From Halomonas sp. 'Soap Lake #6' (GTDB lineage: Bacteria > Pseudomonadota > Gammaproteobacteria > Pseudomonadales > Halomonadaceae): a DNA stretch of 64,000 nucleotides. The stretch lies in assembly GCF_003031405.1 (NCBI RefSeq), contig NZ_CP020469.1, positions 310,001-374,000 of the forward strand, given 5' to 3'. Below the pieces are notes generated by a model. It worked only from the letters and a program-made list of their open reading frames with translations, was not told the DNA's origin and made no database searches. This document shows positions 2,353 to 64,000 of the stretch, piece after piece. Position 1 is the first letter of the stretch; every line of letters starts with the position of its first letter. A program made the position numbers and the translations under genes.

Positions 2353-11295
<8,943 letters not shown>

Positions 11296-55778: not shown

Positions 55779-57989
55779 ATGAATATGCGGAGCATTCGAC
55801 CCTGCCACCTGCTGATTGCAGGTCTTTTGATTGTACCGAAAACGCCCTACGCCGCTGCAGAGGATGAACGTCCTGACCCTACACTGGACGACCAGATCAC
55901 CAAGCTTGAGTCAGTAACCGTCACGGCACGGCGTCGCGAGGAAAGCCTTCGGGATGTGCCCGCGTCAATTCATGTGGAAAGCGGTGAGTCGCTGGAACAG
56001 AAGCGTATGCTCGATGGTGCGGCGGCGTTGCGTGATGTGGCGGGCGCCAGTCTCGGCACTTTCGGTGACCGCTCCAATGCGTTTACCGTCATTCGTGGTG
56101 TTGCACCGATCCTTACGCCCCTTAGCCCGGATGATAGCTCGGTACTGACTTTCGTCGATGGTGCGCCCATGCCGATGGGCGCTTCGCTCTCACCCTATCT
56201 GGATCTGGAGAGGATGGAGGTCGTCAAGGGGCCGCAAAATACATTGTTTGGTCGCAATACGGCCGGTGGGGCTATCAACCTGGTGCCCGTGCAGCCCGAT
56301 CATAGGTTCGAGGGTTCGTTACGTACAGAAGTAGGTACGGATGGTATCTTTCGTGCCGAGAGCATTATCAATGGCTCCATCGTGCCTGAACGGCTTGCTG
56401 GCAGGTTAGCGATTCGCCGCTCCCGTACTGATGGTTATATTCCCAATAGTGCGGGTGAGGATCTGGGCAAAGATGAGAGCTGGGTGGCACGTGGTTCTCT
56501 ACTGTTCACCCCCACCGAGCGAACAAACTGGCTGCTTAGTGTTCAGGGAGAAAGCACTGACACCGCACCTACGGCCTACATTGCCTATCGCCCGGGAGAG
56601 GCGAAACAGGCGGCTCAGAATAAGACCGTGGATGATCTGCGCATGCTCAGTATCAACTCACGACTTGAACATGATTTCGACACATTCACGGCAACGGCGC
56701 AAACCAGCTATGCACGCCTGAATAACCGCAATAGCTACAACTTTCCCGATGCCATTATCGCCAGTGACTTTAGTGGCTTGCCACCATCTGACTTCCTGGA
56801 TCCTGAAACGAACTTTATCGATTGGGATAAGCGAGACTCACGGCTGACCCAAGAGTTTCGGGTAGCAGCGTTGCCTGATGCACAGGTTGGTTGGCTCGCA
56901 GGTGTGGTGTTCTACCGGGATGAAGCACAACGAAATCGCAATAGCGAAATGTGGTACTTCGGTCCTTCCGCTACGGGCAGCACCGACTACGATCTCACCA
57001 CGACAGGGCAGGCGGTATTTGGTGAAGTTAACCTGCCAATGAACGATCAACTGCAGCTGTCGCTGGGCGCACGTGCTACCCACGAATCCAAGGAGTTCCA
57101 CTCGGAATTCACCAGTGACGGCATGTCTGGGGCTGTGCCCTATTTTGCCGAGGAGGGGGAAAAGAGCTACGACTTTGTAACGGGGCGGGCAGCGGTCACC
57201 TACGATTGGTCCCCCGACCTGATGTCCTGGGCGAGCCTTTCCAGAGGCTACAAGAGCGGTGGCTTTGGGCAGGGTAACTCGCTTATGTGGAGCGGTGTGC
57301 CCCGAGACCCCTATGATTCCTCGACGGTGTTGACCTACGAGCTGGGGGCACGCTCTTCGTGGCTTGATAACCGTCTGGCGATCAGTGGGGCGTTGTTCTT
57401 CAACGATATGCGTAAGGAGCAAATGCAAACCTGGGACTATGAGGATTTCACCGGTAAGAACCTGAACCTGGATGCACGTTCAGCAGGTTTCGAACTAGAT
57501 GCACAGTATCGCCCCTCGGGCCGCTGGTGGCTAAGCGGTGGTGTTGCCTATACCAATACAGCACTGCGTAACGTGTCTGAGGAAGCGGCGGCACTGCAAG
57601 ATGGCTTGAACAGTGGTAATCACTTGCCAACAGTGCCGGAATGGTCCGCCAAGGCGGCCATTGGCTATCAAGTAGCGGGTCAATATCTCGGCCTTGGGGG
57701 AGTGTTGGCGGATGGGACCGTCAACGCGCGGCTTGCTTATAACTACATGGGTAGCCGCTACACGGATGCGTCTAACTTCGGCAAGTTGCCGCCAGTACAC
57801 TTAGTATCCGCCCGCCTGGGTATGGATTTCGGTAATAGCGAGGTGTACTTCTTTGGCGACAACCTGCTGGATGAAGAGTACATGAGTATTAAAGATCGCT
57901 TTGGCACGGATGCAGATGGCAACCCGGTGTTTGGTGTGTCCTATGCTCGCGGTGCAACCGTTGGTCTAGGTGCTGCCCTCCACTTCTGA
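55779..57989 (+). CDS. TonB-dependent receptor
   Basis: About 736 residues. A signal peptide (RSIRPCHLLIAGLLIVP, cleavage near YAAAE) is followed by a TonB box and plug (LESVTVTARRREESLRDVPA, VLTFVDGAPMP, MEVVKGPQNTLFGRNTAGGA), barrel strands (ASLSRGYKSGGFGQG) and a C-terminus VGLGAALHF with the usual terminal Phe. No STN domain. The start at ATG 55779 or 55785 gives a normal signal peptide; an open frame extends 13 codons further upstream. It follows the YbtPQ-like pair by about 130 bp and precedes an AraC regulator with a strong Fur site, so it is probably the outer-membrane partner of those transporters. Confidence 0.92.
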   Translation: MNMRSIRPCHLLIAGLLIVPKTPYAAAEDERPDPTLDDQITKLESVTVTARRREESLRDVPASIHVESGESLEQKRMLDGAAALRDVAGASLGTFGDRSNAFTVIRGVAPILTPLSPDDSSVLTFVDGAPMPMGASLSPYLDLERMEVVKGPQNTLFGRNTAGGAINLVPVQPDHRFEGSLRTEVGTDGIFRAESIINGSIVPERLAGRLAIRRSRTDGYIPNSAGEDLGKDESWVARGSLLFTPTERTNWLLSVQGESTDTAPTAYIAYRPGEAKQAAQNKTVDDLRMLSINSRLEHDFDTFTATAQTSYARLNNRNSYNFPDAIIASDFSGLPPSDFLDPETNFIDWDKRDSRLTQEFRVAALPDAQVGWLAGVVFYRDEAQRNRNSEMWYFGPSATGSTDYDLTTTGQAVFGEVNLPMNDQLQLSLGARATHESKEFHSEFTSDGMSGAVPYFAEEGEKSYDFVTGRAAVTYDWSPDLMSWASLSRGYKSGGFGQGNSLMWSGVPRDPYDSSTVLTYELGARSSWLDNRLAISGALFFNDMRKEQMQTWDYEDFTGKNLNLDARSAGFELDAQYRPSGRWWLSGGVAYTNTALRNVSEEAAALQDGLNSGNHLPTVPEWSAKAAIGYQVAGQYLGLGGVLADGTVNARLAYNYMGSRYTDASNFGKLPPVHLVSARLGMDFGNSEVYFFGDNLLDEEYMSIKDRFGTDADGNPVFGVSYARGATVGLGAALHF

Positions 57990-57995
57990 CACCCG

Positions 57996-58079
57996 TTCCC
58001 GCGCCCCCGCAATACTGTTTCCGTGTCCCAATACTATTTCGCGCCCCCACAGTGCTATTTCGCGCCCCCACAGTACTAT
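57996..58079 (+). repeat. Degenerate ~21-bp tandem repeat, about four copies
   Basis: The last two units are nearly identical (TTCGCGCCCCCACAGTGCTA and the same with ACTA). Two earlier units are decayed. It starts just after the receptor stop codon and is strongly C-rich. Confidence 0.8.
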
Positions 58080-59277: not shown

Positions 59278-59296
59278 AAGAATAAGAATCATTTTC
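59278..59296 (+). promoter_or_regulatory. Candidate Fur box upstream of the FecI-type sigma gene
   Basis: AAGAATAAGAATCATTTTC matches 14 of 19 Fur-consensus positions and lies 25-43 bp before the sigma-factor start codon. This is the classic position for Fur control of a surface-signalling sigma factor. Confidence 0.65.
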
Positions 59297-59320: not shown

Positions 59321-59875
59321 ATGGCAGCGGCCCCCCAATCAGCTGAGACCACGGCGTACCATACCGGCTGTCGGGACTCACTCGGCCAACTGTATCACCA
59401 CCATCAACCTTGGTTGCAGCAGCTGTTGAGTCGGCGGCTGGGCTGTGGTGAGTCAGCGGCTGACCTGGCTCAGGACGCCTTTGTGCGCTTGCTGCAAACG
59501 CCGCGCCATCTGGATAGTTTCGATGGCGCCAGAGCCTATTTGAGCCGCATGGCCAAAGGGCTATGCGTGGATCATTGGCGCCGTCTGGATATCGAAAGAG
59601 CCTGGCAAGAGGCGCTGGCCGCCCGTGCTGAAGCATATCTGCCTTCCGCCGAACACCAGCAGATCGTGATCGAGACGCTGTGTGAAATCGACCACATGCT
59701 GGCGCGGTTGCCCGAGAAGGTGGCGACTGCTTTTCTGGCGTCACAACTCCAGGGTAAACCCTATCGGCAGATCGCCGAGGAGCTGGGGATTTCTGAGCGC
59801 ATGGTCAAAAAGTACATGGCCCAGGCCATGTTGCAGTGTGCACTGATCGAAGCCGGTTTCGAGGCCAGCCTCTAA
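59321..59875 (+). CDS. FecI-type ECF sigma factor
   Basis: 184 residues with a sigma-2 region (LGQLYHHHQPWLQQLLSRRL, then SAADLAQDAFVRLL) and a sigma-4 helix-turn-helix (LPEKVATAFLASQLQGKPYR, then QIAEELGISERMVKKYMAQA). This is the FecI subgroup that drives iron-siderophore receptor genes when released by FecR. It is followed 1 bp later by the anti-sigma gene and, beyond a HipBA insertion, by an STN-domain receptor, completing a FecIRA-type surface-signalling cassette. The Fur site upstream predicts expression in low iron. Confidence 0.93.
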   Translation: MAAAPQSAETTAYHTGCRDSLGQLYHHHQPWLQQLLSRRLGCGESAADLAQDAFVRLLQTPRHLDSFDGARAYLSRMAKGLCVDHWRRLDIERAWQEALAARAEAYLPSAEHQQIVIETLCEIDHMLARLPEKVATAFLASQLQGKPYRQIAEELGISERMVKKYMAQAMLQCALIEAGFEASL

Positions 59876-59876
59876 T

Positions 59877-60896
59877 ATGGCATCTGCCGCTTGCCCTGAT
59901 GACGCCGCCAAACGCCGCGCCTTGGCCGAGGCCGCCGAGTGGTTTGCTGAGTGGCAAGCGGGGGATATATCGGCAGCTGAGCGTCAACGCTGGCAGGCTT
60001 GGCATGACGCCAGCGACACCCACCGCTGGGCCTGGCAACAGGTGGAGGGCGTTAGCCGACGCTTCACGGCTAATTTGGATGAGCCGGAGCGGCAAGCCGC
60101 AGGCAGTGTGATTAGTTCTGCGCGACAGCAACGGCGGGGACGGTGGCACCTGCTGAGTGGGCTCTCTAGCCTAGCGATAGCGGCGGTGTTGGTAGGGCTC
60201 TCCTGGCAGTGGACGCCACTGCCTCTGTGGGTGGCTTACTGGAGCGCCGATTATCGTACTGCCACCGGCGACATTACCCTCATTGAACTGGAAGATGGCA
60301 CCCTGGTATGGCTAAGCAGCGCCTCAGCGCTGGATGTTGATTACGATCATCAGCGTCGCCGTCTGCAACTGGTGGCGGGAGAGGTGCTGGTCGTTACCGG
60401 TGATGACCCCGAACGACCACTTTATGTGGATACCCGTAGTGCACGGCTGACCCCCTTGGGCACCCGCTTTAGCGTCCGTCAACGCCAAGCCGACGAGCTG
60501 CTGGCAGTATTTGACGGTGCAGTTGCTATCCATACCCACGGCGATGCCGACCATGCTAGCCAACGCCAAGTGGTCGATGCTGGGCAGCAGGCCAGCTACT
60601 CCGCTAACGGTATTAGTGAACTCACTTCTGCTGACGGCAGCCGGGCTGCTTGGGCCAATGGTGTGTTGTTGGCGGAAAGCATGTCACTGGCCACCTTTAT
60701 CAGTGAGCTGAGCCAGCATCACCATGGCCGCCTTGAAGTCGACCCGGCAGTGGCGGATCTCACGCTACTTGGCGCTTTCCCACTTAATGATCTGGAGCGC
60801 ACCCTGCATATGGTAGAGACCACGCTACCGGTAAAAGTGCGGCAAGTCATGCCCTGGTGGATCAAGATTGAGGCGGCTGAGCCAGCTGTTCAATAA
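59877..60896 (+). CDS. FecR-type anti-sigma/sensor protein
   Basis: 339 residues. The N-terminal cytoplasmic domain (AAEWFAEWQAGDISAAERQR, with later Trp-rich HRWAWQQV) binds sigma. A single membrane segment lies around residues 95-110 (LSSLAIAAVLVGLSW). The periplasmic FecR domain has YRTATGDITLIELEDGT, LSSASAL, then TPLGTRFSVR and a C-terminal WWIKIEAAE. It should relay occupancy of the STN-domain receptor to the sigma factor. Its last ~20 codons and the following spacer recur in degenerate form after the hipA gene. Confidence 0.92.
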   Translation: MASAACPDDAAKRRALAEAAEWFAEWQAGDISAAERQRWQAWHDASDTHRWAWQQVEGVSRRFTANLDEPERQAAGSVISSARQQRRGRWHLLSGLSSLAIAAVLVGLSWQWTPLPLWVAYWSADYRTATGDITLIELEDGTLVWLSSASALDVDYDHQRRRLQLVAGEVLVVTGDDPERPLYVDTRSARLTPLGTRFSVRQRQADELLAVFDGAVAIHTHGDADHASQRQVVDAGQQASYSANGISELTSADGSRAAWANGVLLAESMSLATFISELSQHHHGRLEVDPAVADLTLLGAFPLNDLERTLHMVETTLPVKVRQVMPWWIKIEAAEPAVQ

Positions 60897-60950
60897 AGGC
60901 TATTCAGCAATAAAAAACGCCTTCCTGGTTCCCTTTTTTCGCACTGGGTA
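60829..60950 (+). repeat. Direct repeat copy 1: fecR 3' end plus spacer
   Basis: It pairs with 62643-62764 (offset 1814 bp) and includes an uninterrupted 27-base identical block (60855-60881). The two copies bracket the hipBA genes. The spacer half contains a conserved A-run / GGTTCCC / TTTTTT pattern that may hold a promoter for the next gene. Confidence 0.8.
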
Positions 60951-60975
60951 TCTCCATCATGTCATTGTTGTTTTG

Positions 60976-61003
60976 TAATCTTCATAGTACATTATTGAAG
61001 TTA
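60976..61003 (+). promoter_or_regulatory. Candidate HipB operator, imperfect dyad
   Basis: A 28-bp dyad with half-sites TAAnnTTCA and TGAAnnTTA, centred about 35 bp before the antitoxin start codon. Autoregulation by HipB-type repressors at such dyads is established for the family; the assignment here is inference from position and symmetry. Confidence 0.5.
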
Positions 61004-61024
61004 ATGAATCATGAAGGTTACATC

Positions 61025-61360
61025 ATGCCGACCCCTCATTATCCCTCTGCTGCTGTTAAACGCGTGCTGCGTAAACTGGGGACAGACCTCCGAGAAGCGC
61101 GGCAGCGGCGACGATTAACCATGGCAGTGGTCGCGGAGCGTGCCTTTACCAGCCGGGCTACCCTGCAGCGAATTGAGTCCGGTGATCCGGGCGTGAGCAT
61201 GGGGATCTACGCAGCGGCACTGCAAGCCCTGGGCATGCTCAGTCGGCTTGATCAGCTTGCCGATCCCTCTCAGGATGAAGTCGGCCAAGCCCTCTCTTCC
61301 GCAGCGTTGCCCAAGCGTGTTCGTATGCCCGGTGCCACTAAGAAGCAGTCATATGACTGA
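61025..61360 (+). CDS. hipB: HipB-like antitoxin, XRE-family helix-turn-helix
   Basis: About 111 residues with an XRE DNA-binding domain (LGTDLREARQRRRLTMAVVA, then SRATLQRIESGDPGVSMGIY). It should repress its own operon and neutralise the HipA-type kinase encoded next, whose start overlaps this stop by 8 bp. AAGG 7 nt upstream supports ATG 61025; earlier in-frame Met codons would extend into the predicted operator. It sits unexpectedly inside a fecI-fecR-receptor cassette. Confidence 0.88.
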   Translation: MPTPHYPSAAVKRVLRKLGTDLREARQRRRLTMAVVAERAFTSRATLQRIESGDPGVSMGIYAAALQALGMLSRLDQLADPSQDEVGQALSSAALPKRVRMPGATKKQSYD

Positions 61361-62600
61361 TGTTGACGTGTACATCGATCTGCAAGGACAGATTTGTCAA
61401 TTGGGGCTGTTGCGCCGACAGGCGTCACGGCGAGGCGAGACCGTTACCTTTGAGTACGATGCGGCCTGGCTTGAGGGCGCTAACCGGTTTTCGATCGAGC
61501 CTGCGCTTACGCTTACAGCAGGCACGTTTCCGCCCCAGGCGGGGCAGCCTCTATTTGGTTCGATTGGTGACTCGGCGCCGGATACCTGGGGGCGGCGCTT
61601 GATGCAGCGAGCAGAGCGACGCTTGGCAGAGCGAGAAGGTCGGCAGGTACGTACTCTAGGGGAATTGCATTACCTACTCGGTGTGGCTGACGAAACCCGG
61701 CTTGGAGCACTGCGTTTCCGCTGGCATGGGGATAACGTATTTCAAGCGCCGGTTAGTGAAGGCGTACCCGCACTGGTGGAACTCGGTCGTCTGCTACAAA
61801 TTACTGAGCGTATTGGTCGTGATGAGGAAACCGAGGAAGATCTTCGGCTTATTTTTGCTCCGGGATCCTCACTGGGGGGAGCTAGGCCTAAGGCTTCTGT
61901 GATCGATCAGCACGGTTACTTGTCGATTGCCAAGTTCCCGAAAGAAACGGATGAGTACAGCATGGAAACCTGGGAGGAGATTGCGCTCAGGCTGGCTGAA
62001 CGGGCGGGTATTGAGACTCCCAAGCACCAACTAGTCCAGGTTGCAGGGAAAGCTGTACTGTTATCGCGTCGCTTTGATCGCGTGGGTGGTTGGCGCACTC
62101 CGTTTCTGTCTGCCATGTCGATGACCGGATCGCGGGATGGTGAACGAGGAAGCTATCCCGAATTGGTGGATGCCCTAGCGGCGAATGGCGCGCAGGCCAA
62201 GGTAGATTCGGTACAGCTCTATCGCCGGGTAGCCTTCAATGTGCTGGTGTCCAATGTTGACGATCATCTACGCAATCACGGCTTTCTATGGACTGGCCGG
62301 GGAGGGTGGGTACTGTCACCGGCGTATGATCTCAATCCGACACCGGTGGATGTGAAGGCGCGTATTCTGACCACCAATATTGATCTTGATGAAGGAACTT
62401 GCTCGCTAGGGCTACTGGAAGAGGCCGCGGAGTACTTCGGCTTAGGCTTGCAATCAGCACGAACCATTATCCGCGAAGTGGCAGAGGCCACGCGGACTTG
62501 GCAGTCAGTGGCAAAGGAGGTCGGTGCCCGACGTACAGAGATCACGCGTATGTCCAGTGCCTTTGAGCACGAGGATTTGCAGCTGGCACTGCGCCTTTAA
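61353..62600 (+). CDS. hipA: HipA-like toxin (Ser/Thr kinase)
   Basis: About 415 residues. HipA-type features: FGSIGDSAPDTWGRRL, the ATP-binding loop region SSLGGARPKA, the SIAKFPK segment with the conserved Lys, the catalytic SNVDDHLRNHGFL, and LSPAYDLNPTP with the metal-binding Asp. Key residues look intact, so it is probably active. Known HipA proteins phosphorylate aminoacyl-tRNA synthetases and induce dormancy. The start overlaps hipB by 8 bp (ATGACTGA), as expected for a coupled pair. It lies between fecR and the receptor gene. Confidence 0.9.
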   Translation: MTDVDVYIDLQGQICQLGLLRRQASRRGETVTFEYDAAWLEGANRFSIEPALTLTAGTFPPQAGQPLFGSIGDSAPDTWGRRLMQRAERRLAEREGRQVRTLGELHYLLGVADETRLGALRFRWHGDNVFQAPVSEGVPALVELGRLLQITERIGRDEETEEDLRLIFAPGSSLGGARPKASVIDQHGYLSIAKFPKETDEYSMETWEEIALRLAERAGIETPKHQLVQVAGKAVLLSRRFDRVGGWRTPFLSAMSMTGSRDGERGSYPELVDALAANGAQAKVDSVQLYRRVAFNVLVSNVDDHLRNHGFLWTGRGGWVLSPAYDLNPTPVDVKARILTTNIDLDEGTCSLGLLEEAAEYFGLGLQSARTIIREVAEATRTWQSVAKEVGARRTEITRMSSAFEHEDLQLALRL

Positions 62601-62642
62601 GTTTGGTCTATTGTCGCTGTGCGGTGGCTAACCGATTGCTGT

Positions 62643-62764
62643 TGGTAAAAATTCAGCAAGTCATGCAATGGTGGATCAAGATTGAGGCGGCTGAGTCAGT
62701 TTCTGAATAAAAGCTAGTCAAAAATAAAGATGCTTTCCCGGTTCCCCTTTTTTGCGCTGGTTCG
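62643..62764 (+). repeat. Direct repeat copy 2: degenerate fecR 3' end plus spacer
   Basis: It aligns with 60829-60950 along its full length. Coding and spacer halves are both preserved, and they now precede the receptor gene instead of hipB. Confidence 0.8.
62645..62710 (+). pseudogene. fecR 3'-terminal remnant
   Basis: Twenty-one codons plus stop, read in the original frame, give VKIQQVMQWWIKIEAAESVSE. The intact fecR ends with the closely similar VKVRQVMPWWIKIEAAEPAVQ. No start or upstream fecR sequence is present, so it is a fragment left by duplication or deletion. Confidence 0.8.
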
Positions 62765-62810
62765 ATTCCTCTATATAAGCAGCTAAAAACCATCTGCAAG
62801 GGGAACCAAT

Positions 62811-64000
62811 ATGCCACAGCAACGCACCGTATTACCTCCATCGCTTACCACTACTCGCCTGTTTCCAAGACGTCGCCGCGCACTCGCGCTGGCGGTTCAT
62901 CTAGCTGCTTTCGGTTTGTTAGCCACGCCACTGCTGGCACTACCCGCCATGGCGCAAACCACGCAGCAGCAAACACGACAGTACGATATCCCCGCTGGTC
63001 CAGTTAGTACGGTGCTCAACCGCTTCGCCGCCGAGGCCGGTGTGTTTATCAGCGGTGCTGGCGAGTTGGGGCAAGGGCGCCAAAGCCCTGGGCTGCAGGG
63101 CCAGTATAGTGTTGATGAGGGGCTGGGACGGTTGCTTAACGGAACCAGCCTGAGGGCTGTACGGCAAGGGGATGGGAGTTATCGGTTGGAAGAGCGGCCT
63201 GCTGATGTGGAACTGCCATTAGTTGAGGTCACAGGCGCTAGGACTCCAAACTCTCTCCCCATTGCTTATTTTGGTGGACAAGTAGCAACGGGCGGGCGTC
63301 TCGGGCTGCTAGGCAACATGGATATCATGGATGCCCCTTTTAATATAGCCAGTTACACATCAGAACTAATTAAAAGCCAACAAGCCAGGAGCATGGCAGA
63401 TATTGCTGACAATGATCCATCAGTCCAGATAGCTTTACGTGGGAGAGGAACAAACTCTGGAGGCGATGCCTTTAACATTCGAGGGTTTACTCTCTCAAAC
63501 GGTGATATATCCCTAAACGGGATGTACGGTGTTATGCCACTGAACACCATATCCATGGAAACTGTAGAGCGAGTGGAGATAATCAAAGGCCCCAGCACTC
63601 TATTAAATGGTGTATCACCTAGAGGCCAAGTTGGTGGTGCAATAAATATTGTGCCTAAGCGTGCAAGCAATACTCCTCTTACGGAAATCTCTGCTGTTTA
63701 TCAAAGTGACTCGCAGCTGGGTACTCATATAGATGCTGGACGGAGATTCGGAGAATCAAATCAACTTGGTATACGTTTTAATGGTGTCTTGAGAGACGGG
63801 GATACGGCGGTTGACGGTCAATCTTCATCGCTAGGCGTTGCCGCCCTTGGTATTGATTACCAAGGTGATAATTATCGACTGTCAGCCGATATGGGTTATC
63901 AGAAAGACAGCGTAGATGCTGCTAGTGGGTTTGGATCTGGGCTGCAGATTCAACAAAGAGTAGATGCTCCCACGGCTCCCAATGCAAGAAAGCAAACAGC
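62811..64000 (+). CDS. TonB-dependent siderophore receptor with STN signalling domain, 3' end outside the window
   Basis: The ATG is preceded by AGGGGAACC. A long twin-Arg-rich N-terminus (RRRRAL) and signal peptide (cleavage near PAMAQT) are followed by an STN domain (residues ~58-125; QYDIPAGPVSTVLNRFAAEA, then YSVDEGLGRLLNGTSLRAVR), a TonB box (LPLVEVTGA) and a plug (SPSTLLNGV-type loop: IIKGPSTLLNGVSPRGQVGG). This is the FecA/FpvA transducer type that works with the fecI/fecR genes upstream. From about 63235 onward the DNA becomes markedly A+T-richer with ATA, AGA and AGG codons, unlike the STN part. The frame is still open at the right edge. Confidence 0.92.
   Translation, partial: MPQQRTVLPPSLTTTRLFPRRRRALALAVHLAAFGLLATPLLALPAMAQTTQQQTRQYDIPAGPVSTVLNRFAAEAGVFISGAGELGQGRQSPGLQGQYSVDEGLGRLLNGTSLRAVRQGDGSYRLEERPADVELPLVEVTGARTPNSLPIAYFGGQVATGGRLGLLGNMDIMDAPFNIASYTSELIKSQQARSMADIADNDPSVQIALRGRGTNSGGDAFNIRGFTLSNGDISLNGMYGVMPLNTISMETVERVEIIKGPSTLLNGVSPRGQVGGAINIVPKRASNTPLTEISAVYQSDSQLGTHIDAGRRFGESNQLGIRFNGVLRDGDTAVDGQSSSLGVAALGIDYQGDNYRLSADMGYQKDSVDAASGFGSGLQIQQRVDAPTAPNARKQT

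Follow-up and report, generated by a model that had tools for sequence, protein, structure and literature searches.

How does a toxin-antitoxin pair come to lie between a cell-surface signalling regulator and the receptor that it serves? The question is raised by a 64,000-nucleotide stretch of Halomonas sp. 'Soap Lake #6' (NCBI contig NZ_CP020469.1, positions 310,001 to 374,000; hereafter the window), taken from a 4.8-Mb single-contig genome of the genus Vreelandella/Halomonas. On one strand (+) it carries the genes fecI, fecR, hipB, hipA and receptor, in that order. A sequence-only reading, made by a model from the letters and their open reading frames, had described this as a fecI-fecR-receptor cassette interrupted by hipB-hipA, and both the gene order and the domain matches agree with it. 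We consider it probable that a hipBA module entered the cassette where fecR ends and that its landing site, about 100-118 bp in length, was duplicated. The features on which the argument depends are as follows, UP and DOWN being the upstream and downstream repeat copies.

59321..59875, plus strand: fecI-like extracytoplasmic function (ECF) sigma factor gene, 184 amino acids (aa); Pfam Sigma70_r2/r4_2
59877..60896, plus strand: fecR-like sigma regulator gene, 339 aa; Pfam FecR and DUF4880; whole to its own stop
60830..60947, plus strand: UP, 118 bp; covers the end of fecR with its stop codon and the beginning of the spacer
60948..62643, plus strand: sequence between the repeat copies, ~1.7 kb; absent here in 17/17 relatives
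61025..61360, plus strand: hipB, 111 aa helix-turn-helix (HTH) antitoxin; Pfam HTH_31/HTH_3 on 61013-61357
61353..62600, plus strand: hipA, 415 aa HipA-family kinase; Pfam HipA_C and Couple_hipA; open frame intact
62644..62760, plus strand: DOWN, 117 bp
62645..62710, plus strand: fecR 3′-end remnant, 21 in-frame codons plus stop
62811..64000, continuing past the window to 65276, plus strand: TonB-dependent receptor gene with STN signalling domain; Pfam STN and Plug

The two repeat copies are 81% identical over 118 alignment columns. A whole-genome search with 60800-60958 recovered the second copy with E = 2.9e-25, while the next match had E = 0.03, from which it follows that chance is far from explaining the repeat and that it is not dispersed. 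A dispersed genomic repeat was rejected on the strength of that next match, and a recent duplication on the 81% identity of the copies. The direct repeat of ~120 bp on both sides of hipBA and the 21-codon fecR remnant after hipA, both reported in the sequence-only reading, are thereby borne out. Its account of the repeat as the last fecR codons together with the spacer before the receptor holds for the codons, but UP does not contain the whole spacer: its similarity ends at 60947, within a conserved promoter-like block, and it is without the receptor leader.

The relatives of this bacterium show the site without hipBA. When 82 genus genomes were searched with 62630-62830, the spacer turned up in 18; one of these is the genome under study, which leaves 17 relatives (their genomes carry G numbers below; L numbers designate hipBA loci or other compared stretches). 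The comparison that the sequence-only reading had proposed, with relatives lacking hipBA, gives a uniform result, since the fecR end, the spacer and the receptor start codon form an unbroken alignment in all 17. In the closest relative, G004, whose FecR product has 94% aa identity with that of the window, the matching segments are 3761-5361 for 59341-60947 and 5263-11003 for 62657-68445, so that 99 bp which are single there are used twice here, once on each side of the insert. By pairwise mapping the left break falls at 60947 against nine of the 17 relatives, including G004, at most 8 bases away in three, and at 60874-60887 in five; the right start lies at 62656-62660 against all 17. HipA matches (E <= 1e-20) in the 81 other genus genomes never rise above 49% identity and none of the 17 relatives carries the insertion, which speaks against an arrangement that is ancient in relatives. 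Among 275 family genomes, again with the present one included, five others have a HipA match at E <= 1e-120 with 58-76% identity, and neither repeat copy was matched within 1.5 kb on each side of those five loci. Because all 17 relatives are contiguous and 99 bp are used twice relative to G004, the alignments show well that hipBA was inserted, probably with a long target duplication, and that fecR and the receptor leader were kept whole. Of the two origins suggested by the sequence-only reading, capture with a target duplication is the one that the empty site supports.

What was inserted is small. hipB and hipA overlap by 8 bp and leave uncovered 77 bp at the left end of the insert and 43 bp at its right end, so that no recombinase gene fits in it, and no inverted repeats of at least 20 nt joining the insert ends were found. 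A transposon or integron cassette was rejected on these grounds; the duplication, moreover, is of ~100 bp and not a short one. A relative of the hipBA subfamily is encoded in 83 of 95 candidate GTDB-genome stretches, of which 79 loci were kept; among the best 7,999 candidates, to which the protein search was limited, members of a marine gammaproteobacterial group (L001-L008, L077) have 83-85% HipA identity, those of Burkholderiales 79-80%, and those from alphaproteobacteria or plasmids at most 75%. All 79 loci can be aligned to the hipBA core, nucleotide similarity starting at 60963-60978 in 48 of them and in many stopping near the hipA stop codon, and the module can accordingly be delimited as hipB, hipA and ~55 bp of leader. 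hipBA is probably a compact, horizontally spread toxin-antitoxin module. In another genus of the family (L179; coordinates 3-1091, 1501-2745 and 3184-4242) a related hipBA with HipA at 71% stands between cas3-like and cse1 genes of CRISPR-Cas, and the flanking frames of L181 are similar.

The hipA product matches Pfam HipA_C with 151.8 bits, and its AlphaFold model (mean predicted local distance difference test score, pLDDT, 87.8) retrieves HipA entries among the top 19 in Foldseek, with a best E of 2.5e-15 and a template modelling (TM) score of about 0.7 to E. coli HipA structures. Residues S173, D303, D304, N308 and D326 are invariant in 27 aligned sequences. Matches to the listed NCBIfam models for HipA and HipB stayed under their cut-offs, and those from PADLOC were weak for both hipB and hipA. 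We consider hipBA likely to be a growth-arresting toxin-antitoxin pair. Upstream of it lies a palindrome:

60980..61016, plus strand: likely HipB operator, 12-bp palindrome arms 60980-60991 / 61005-61016

In the window and 25 loci, 95.5% of cells in the arms pair, as against 22-53% when the arms are slid; these 25 of the 44 aligned loci were chosen by eye because their spacing is equal, so that the marine group (9 loci) and 10 more were left out. None of 500 shuffles gave paired cells as good, and 2/500 were as good in cells changed on both sides (5), while the number of palindrome pairs changed on both sides (2) was reached by 202/500 shuffles and is not above chance. The palindrome is likely the operator at which HipB acts.

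The spacer in which UP breaks off contains the first of two further sequences that bear on the regulation of the cassette.

62740..62777, plus strand: promoter-like block conserved ahead of the receptor gene, probably FecI-dependent; kept whole in DOWN
59278..59296, plus strand: Fur-box-like sequence upstream of fecI; 14/19 matches to a Fur consensus, with 3/300 shuffles as good

In the 17 relatives the block is nearly invariant, with a first half GTTCCC.TTTT, a second half GGTTCGATTCC.CT.TATA and a conserved leader after it. If a column is called conserved when it is the same in at least 16/17 relatives, DOWN keeps 11/11 such columns in the first half, 17/17 in the second and 25/25 in the leader; UP keeps 11/11, 8/17 and 7/25, respectively. 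By their position and conservation the two halves would be −35 and −10 elements. A review (PMC9249621) states that −10 mutations cut fecA transcription strongly and −35 mutations much less, and on that account UP would have lost the more important half, if the halves are what they seem.

The copies are not young. The distances are 19/110 between UP and DOWN, 15/106 between UP and G004, and 23/104 between DOWN and G004, so most of the change lies on DOWN; solved together, the three distances place ~13.5 changes there, or 0.12 per site. At synonymous sites the genome under study and G004 have diverged by 0.31 in fecI, 0.24 in fecR and 0.14 in the receptor gene. Since 0.12 per site on DOWN stands beside synonymous values of 0.14-0.31, the insertion may be roughly as old as the split from G004, with the wide error that 110 bp impose. 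In the fecR tail, DOWN departs from the relatives at 5 of the 37 columns conserved in at least 16/17 of them, and UP at one (one of those five); in leave-one-out comparisons the relatives themselves depart at 0-2 of these columns, and G067 at 7. Six changes in the tail that set DOWN apart from both UP and G004 occur in none of the remaining 16 relatives. A dead remnant would be expected to look like this, and the fecR tail beyond hipA is presumably non-functional and decaying. When neutral change of 0.12 per site was simulated in hipA, the mean was 5.2 stops and 3 of 1000 runs had none, whereas the real hipA is open; hipB, which is too short for this test, had none in 272/1000. We surmise that the pair has been kept by selection.

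What drives hipBA at this site admits of three answers. The sequence-only reading had supposed that, if the spacer holds the sigma-dependent promoter, one repeat copy drives the toxin through the FecI sigma factor, so that a FecI-dependent promoter in UP would make the toxin answer siderophore sensing. UP does lie on the same strand, ~80 bp ahead of hipB, with the first half of the block complete, but the loss of the second half (8 of 17 columns kept), for which we rejected this reading, and the palindrome that hipBA has of its own make it very improbable. Most likely hipBA runs on its own promoter. It is possible, although somewhat unlikely, that fecIR transcripts in addition extend into hipBA, in which case a Fur-controlled fecI promoter would raise hipBA expression in iron starvation, atop the module's own promoter. 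All the genes are on one strand, a Fur-like box stands ahead of fecI, and a scan, which detects simple terminators only, shows nothing terminator-like from fecR to hipB; HipB would be made along with HipA, however, and its autorepression would buffer the effect. The position of a toxin among other genes should not be equated with regulatory coupling, and the duplicated spacer carries a part of the block only.

Two other histories would also leave a fecR tail beyond hipA. The loss of a second fecIR set, put forward in the sequence-only reading, would have a tandem cassette mostly deleted, its fecR tail left and hipBA in the gap. Further fecI-fecR-receptor cassettes adjoin this one and make cassette duplication plausible, but several kilobases would have to be duplicated, hipBA inserted and the rest deleted; these are more steps than a single insertion takes, all 17 relatives are single with no intermediate among them, and between the repeats no match above 60 bp to any relative's cassette exists, so that this course of events is improbable. 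Less improbable, but still rather doubtful, is an import in which donor DNA with hipBA already joined to a fecR tail was recombined in, the copies coming from different strains. The low identity of UP and DOWN (81-83%) would agree with it, and the cassette does recombine, as receptor similarity stops at 63192-63238 in 16/17 relatives; against it, the faster decay of a dead remnant accounts for most of the divergence, DOWN and G004 differ at 1 of 57 sites from 62754 to 62810, and at 10 sites UP and DOWN share a state that G004 lacks, although each of those states is present in at least 1/16 other relatives. The tree test favours no grouping, the approximately unbiased (AU) p being 0.31-0.55 for every tested grouping of UP, DOWN and G004, and the alignment supports a DOWN copied from UP no better than one that came from a related strain. 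Other observations also weigh against the insertion as we have described it. At 60888, 60889 and 60891 the DOWN state is that of 7-8 of the 16 other relatives, G066 among them, and unlike UP and G004, as an import would have it. The insertion is present in one genome only; a HipA of 95% identity is found in Halomonas sp. AOP13-D3-9, among the matches listed; a scan of 60700-62900 found no sigma-70 consensus promoter; and of 22 fresh hipBA loci (flanks of 0.9-1.5 kb) two have a flanking repeat (L182, L197), none traced to a gene.

With these points allowed for, we prefer insertion with duplication of the landing site. The module would have entered the cassette at the 3′-end of fecR while about 100-118 bp of the site, from the fecR tail into the spacer, were copied. 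Thanks to the duplication, neither fecR nor the receptor leader would have been damaged and the event would thus have been tolerated, because a simple insertion at either break would presumably cut the receptor promoter block or fecR. As 77 and 43 bp leave no room for a recombinase, the joining machinery would have been supplied from outside hipBA and would not be self-encoded. Once in place, hipBA would be expressed from its own HipB-repressed promoter, with HipA a kinase toxin restrained by HipB. The donor, the age and the mechanism we infer.

Is this a habit of hipBA more widely? Flank-repeat scans covered 75 of the 79 loci, four being left out for short flanks. Direct repeats of at least 40 nt across hipBA occur at 9/75 loci and at 2/74 control intervals (p = 0.056), or at 10/76 loci (p = 0.031) when the window, which is the discovery case, is added. 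With a cut-off of 60 nt, chosen after seeing the data, the counts are 9/75 vs 0/74 (p = 0.003), and with array loci left out, a choice likewise made after seeing the data, 5/71 vs 0/72 (p = 0.028). A protein-level scan gave 7/75 vs 1/76, with weak cases at L006 and L021 among the seven (p = 0.034), and in an earlier repeat scan of 53/79 loci one of 148 mismatched-pair controls scored 148 bits, more than three of the four best repeats did. The candidate flanking duplication includes a recognised gene at 4/75 loci:

L003, 5127-5368 / 9126-9367: guaA 3′-end, 242 bp duplicated
L059, 5220-5460 and 7425-8573: decayed dnaJ 3′-end with internal deletion, and whole dnaJ across hipBA
L047: 87 bp from close to the 3′-end of a P-type ATPase gene
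L022, 4374-8174: whole xre antitoxin gene, 423 bp, in two identical copies

L003, L059 and L022 are metagenome contigs (L022 with a coverage of 5.6) and L047 a draft genome. The insert of L003 holds, besides hipBA, further small frames that resemble toxin-antitoxin genes by eye; in L022 hipBA and a Fic/Doc gene stand between the xre copies, one of which adjoins its RES gene. Taken together, the scans are no more than suggestive of flanking duplications as a wider hipBA habit. One may tentatively suppose, though we hold it to be unlikely, that HipBA-type modules spread as restriction-modification genes do, by long target duplication without a recombinase of their own and settling at gene 3′-ends, and that the fecR, dnaJ, ATPase, guaA and xre sites are products of one process; if so, they would settle there because the duplication leaves the gene whole.

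In some of the close relatives from marine gammaproteobacteria (L006, L003, L002, L004, L077) hipBA stands among repeated elements with CATGGTATTTTTCATGGTATT (at most 3 mismatches). In L006 these are found at 212, 3150, 5148, 6254 and 10072, in one orientation and 1-4 kb apart, like arrays of small cassettes, and Rfam gave no match for the repeated elements in L001, L003, L004 and L006. The repeats around some L001-L008 loci are a different, locally repeated element from the repeat of the window.

The surroundings of the insertion offer some further observations. From 59321 to 76000, in window numbering that runs past its end, three successive fecI-fecR-receptor cassettes are found, each fecI gene with a Fur-box-like sequence upstream. 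The point at which similarity of the receptor at 62811 stops in the relatives lies near the end of the signalling domain, and the barrels seem to be swapped while the fecI-fecR-STN part ahead of them stays constant; G008 and G019 have a match to the barrel region elsewhere in the same stretch. Directly after another TonB-dependent receptor gene, which ends at 57989, three imperfect 21-nt direct repeats resembling CAATACTATTTCGCGCCCCCA occupy 58010-58070.

Both partners in this locus resemble well-known systems. As in the HipBA of E. coli and Shewanella oneidensis, a gene for an HTH antitoxin overlaps one for a HipA-fold kinase and a palindrome lies upstream, although HipA identity to those proteins is 14-18% over the structural match obtained with the predicted model. 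The FecI-FecR-FecA set is complete by domains, with ECF sigma factor, FecR-like regulator and STN receptor in order and a Fur-like box before fecI (matches of the fecI product to FecI-type NCBIfam models being under their cut-offs); it differs in having hipBA between regulator and receptor. In the open-licence literature searched, neither a link between hipBA and fecR nor a toxin-antitoxin pair with a long target duplication was found. Genomic islands are known at gene 3′-ends, for example that of guaA, and they share with these loci a gene 3′-end duplicated across the insert, as in the 242 bp of L003, whereas the insert in the window has no room for an integrase and the target gene is a different one at each locus. 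To our knowledge, the movement of small recombinase-free toxin-antitoxin pairs between chromosomes is not settled.

The closest parallel is found in restriction-modification genes, whose insertion with a long target duplication is reportedly described by Nobusato et al. 2000. According to PMC3874152 the target duplications made when these genes insert are long and of variable length, on the order of 100 bp, and the same insertion is described in PMC3031569 and PMC1643837; a toxin-antitoxin review that cites this work (PMC2654758) credits restriction-modification systems with the same addiction and apparent mobility. The likeness lies in an addiction-type gene pair, a duplicated target of ~100 bp and a single copy of that target in relatives without the insert, while the present locus differs in its cargo, a type II toxin-antitoxin pair, and in that its copies are old, at 81% identity, and seen in one genome. 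The hipBA and FecIR parts are thus ordinary in themselves, and the type of insertion is one known for restriction-modification genes, here with a toxin-antitoxin cargo; the mapped empty site, the duplicated target and the intact host cassette make the locus a concrete case to set beside that precedent.

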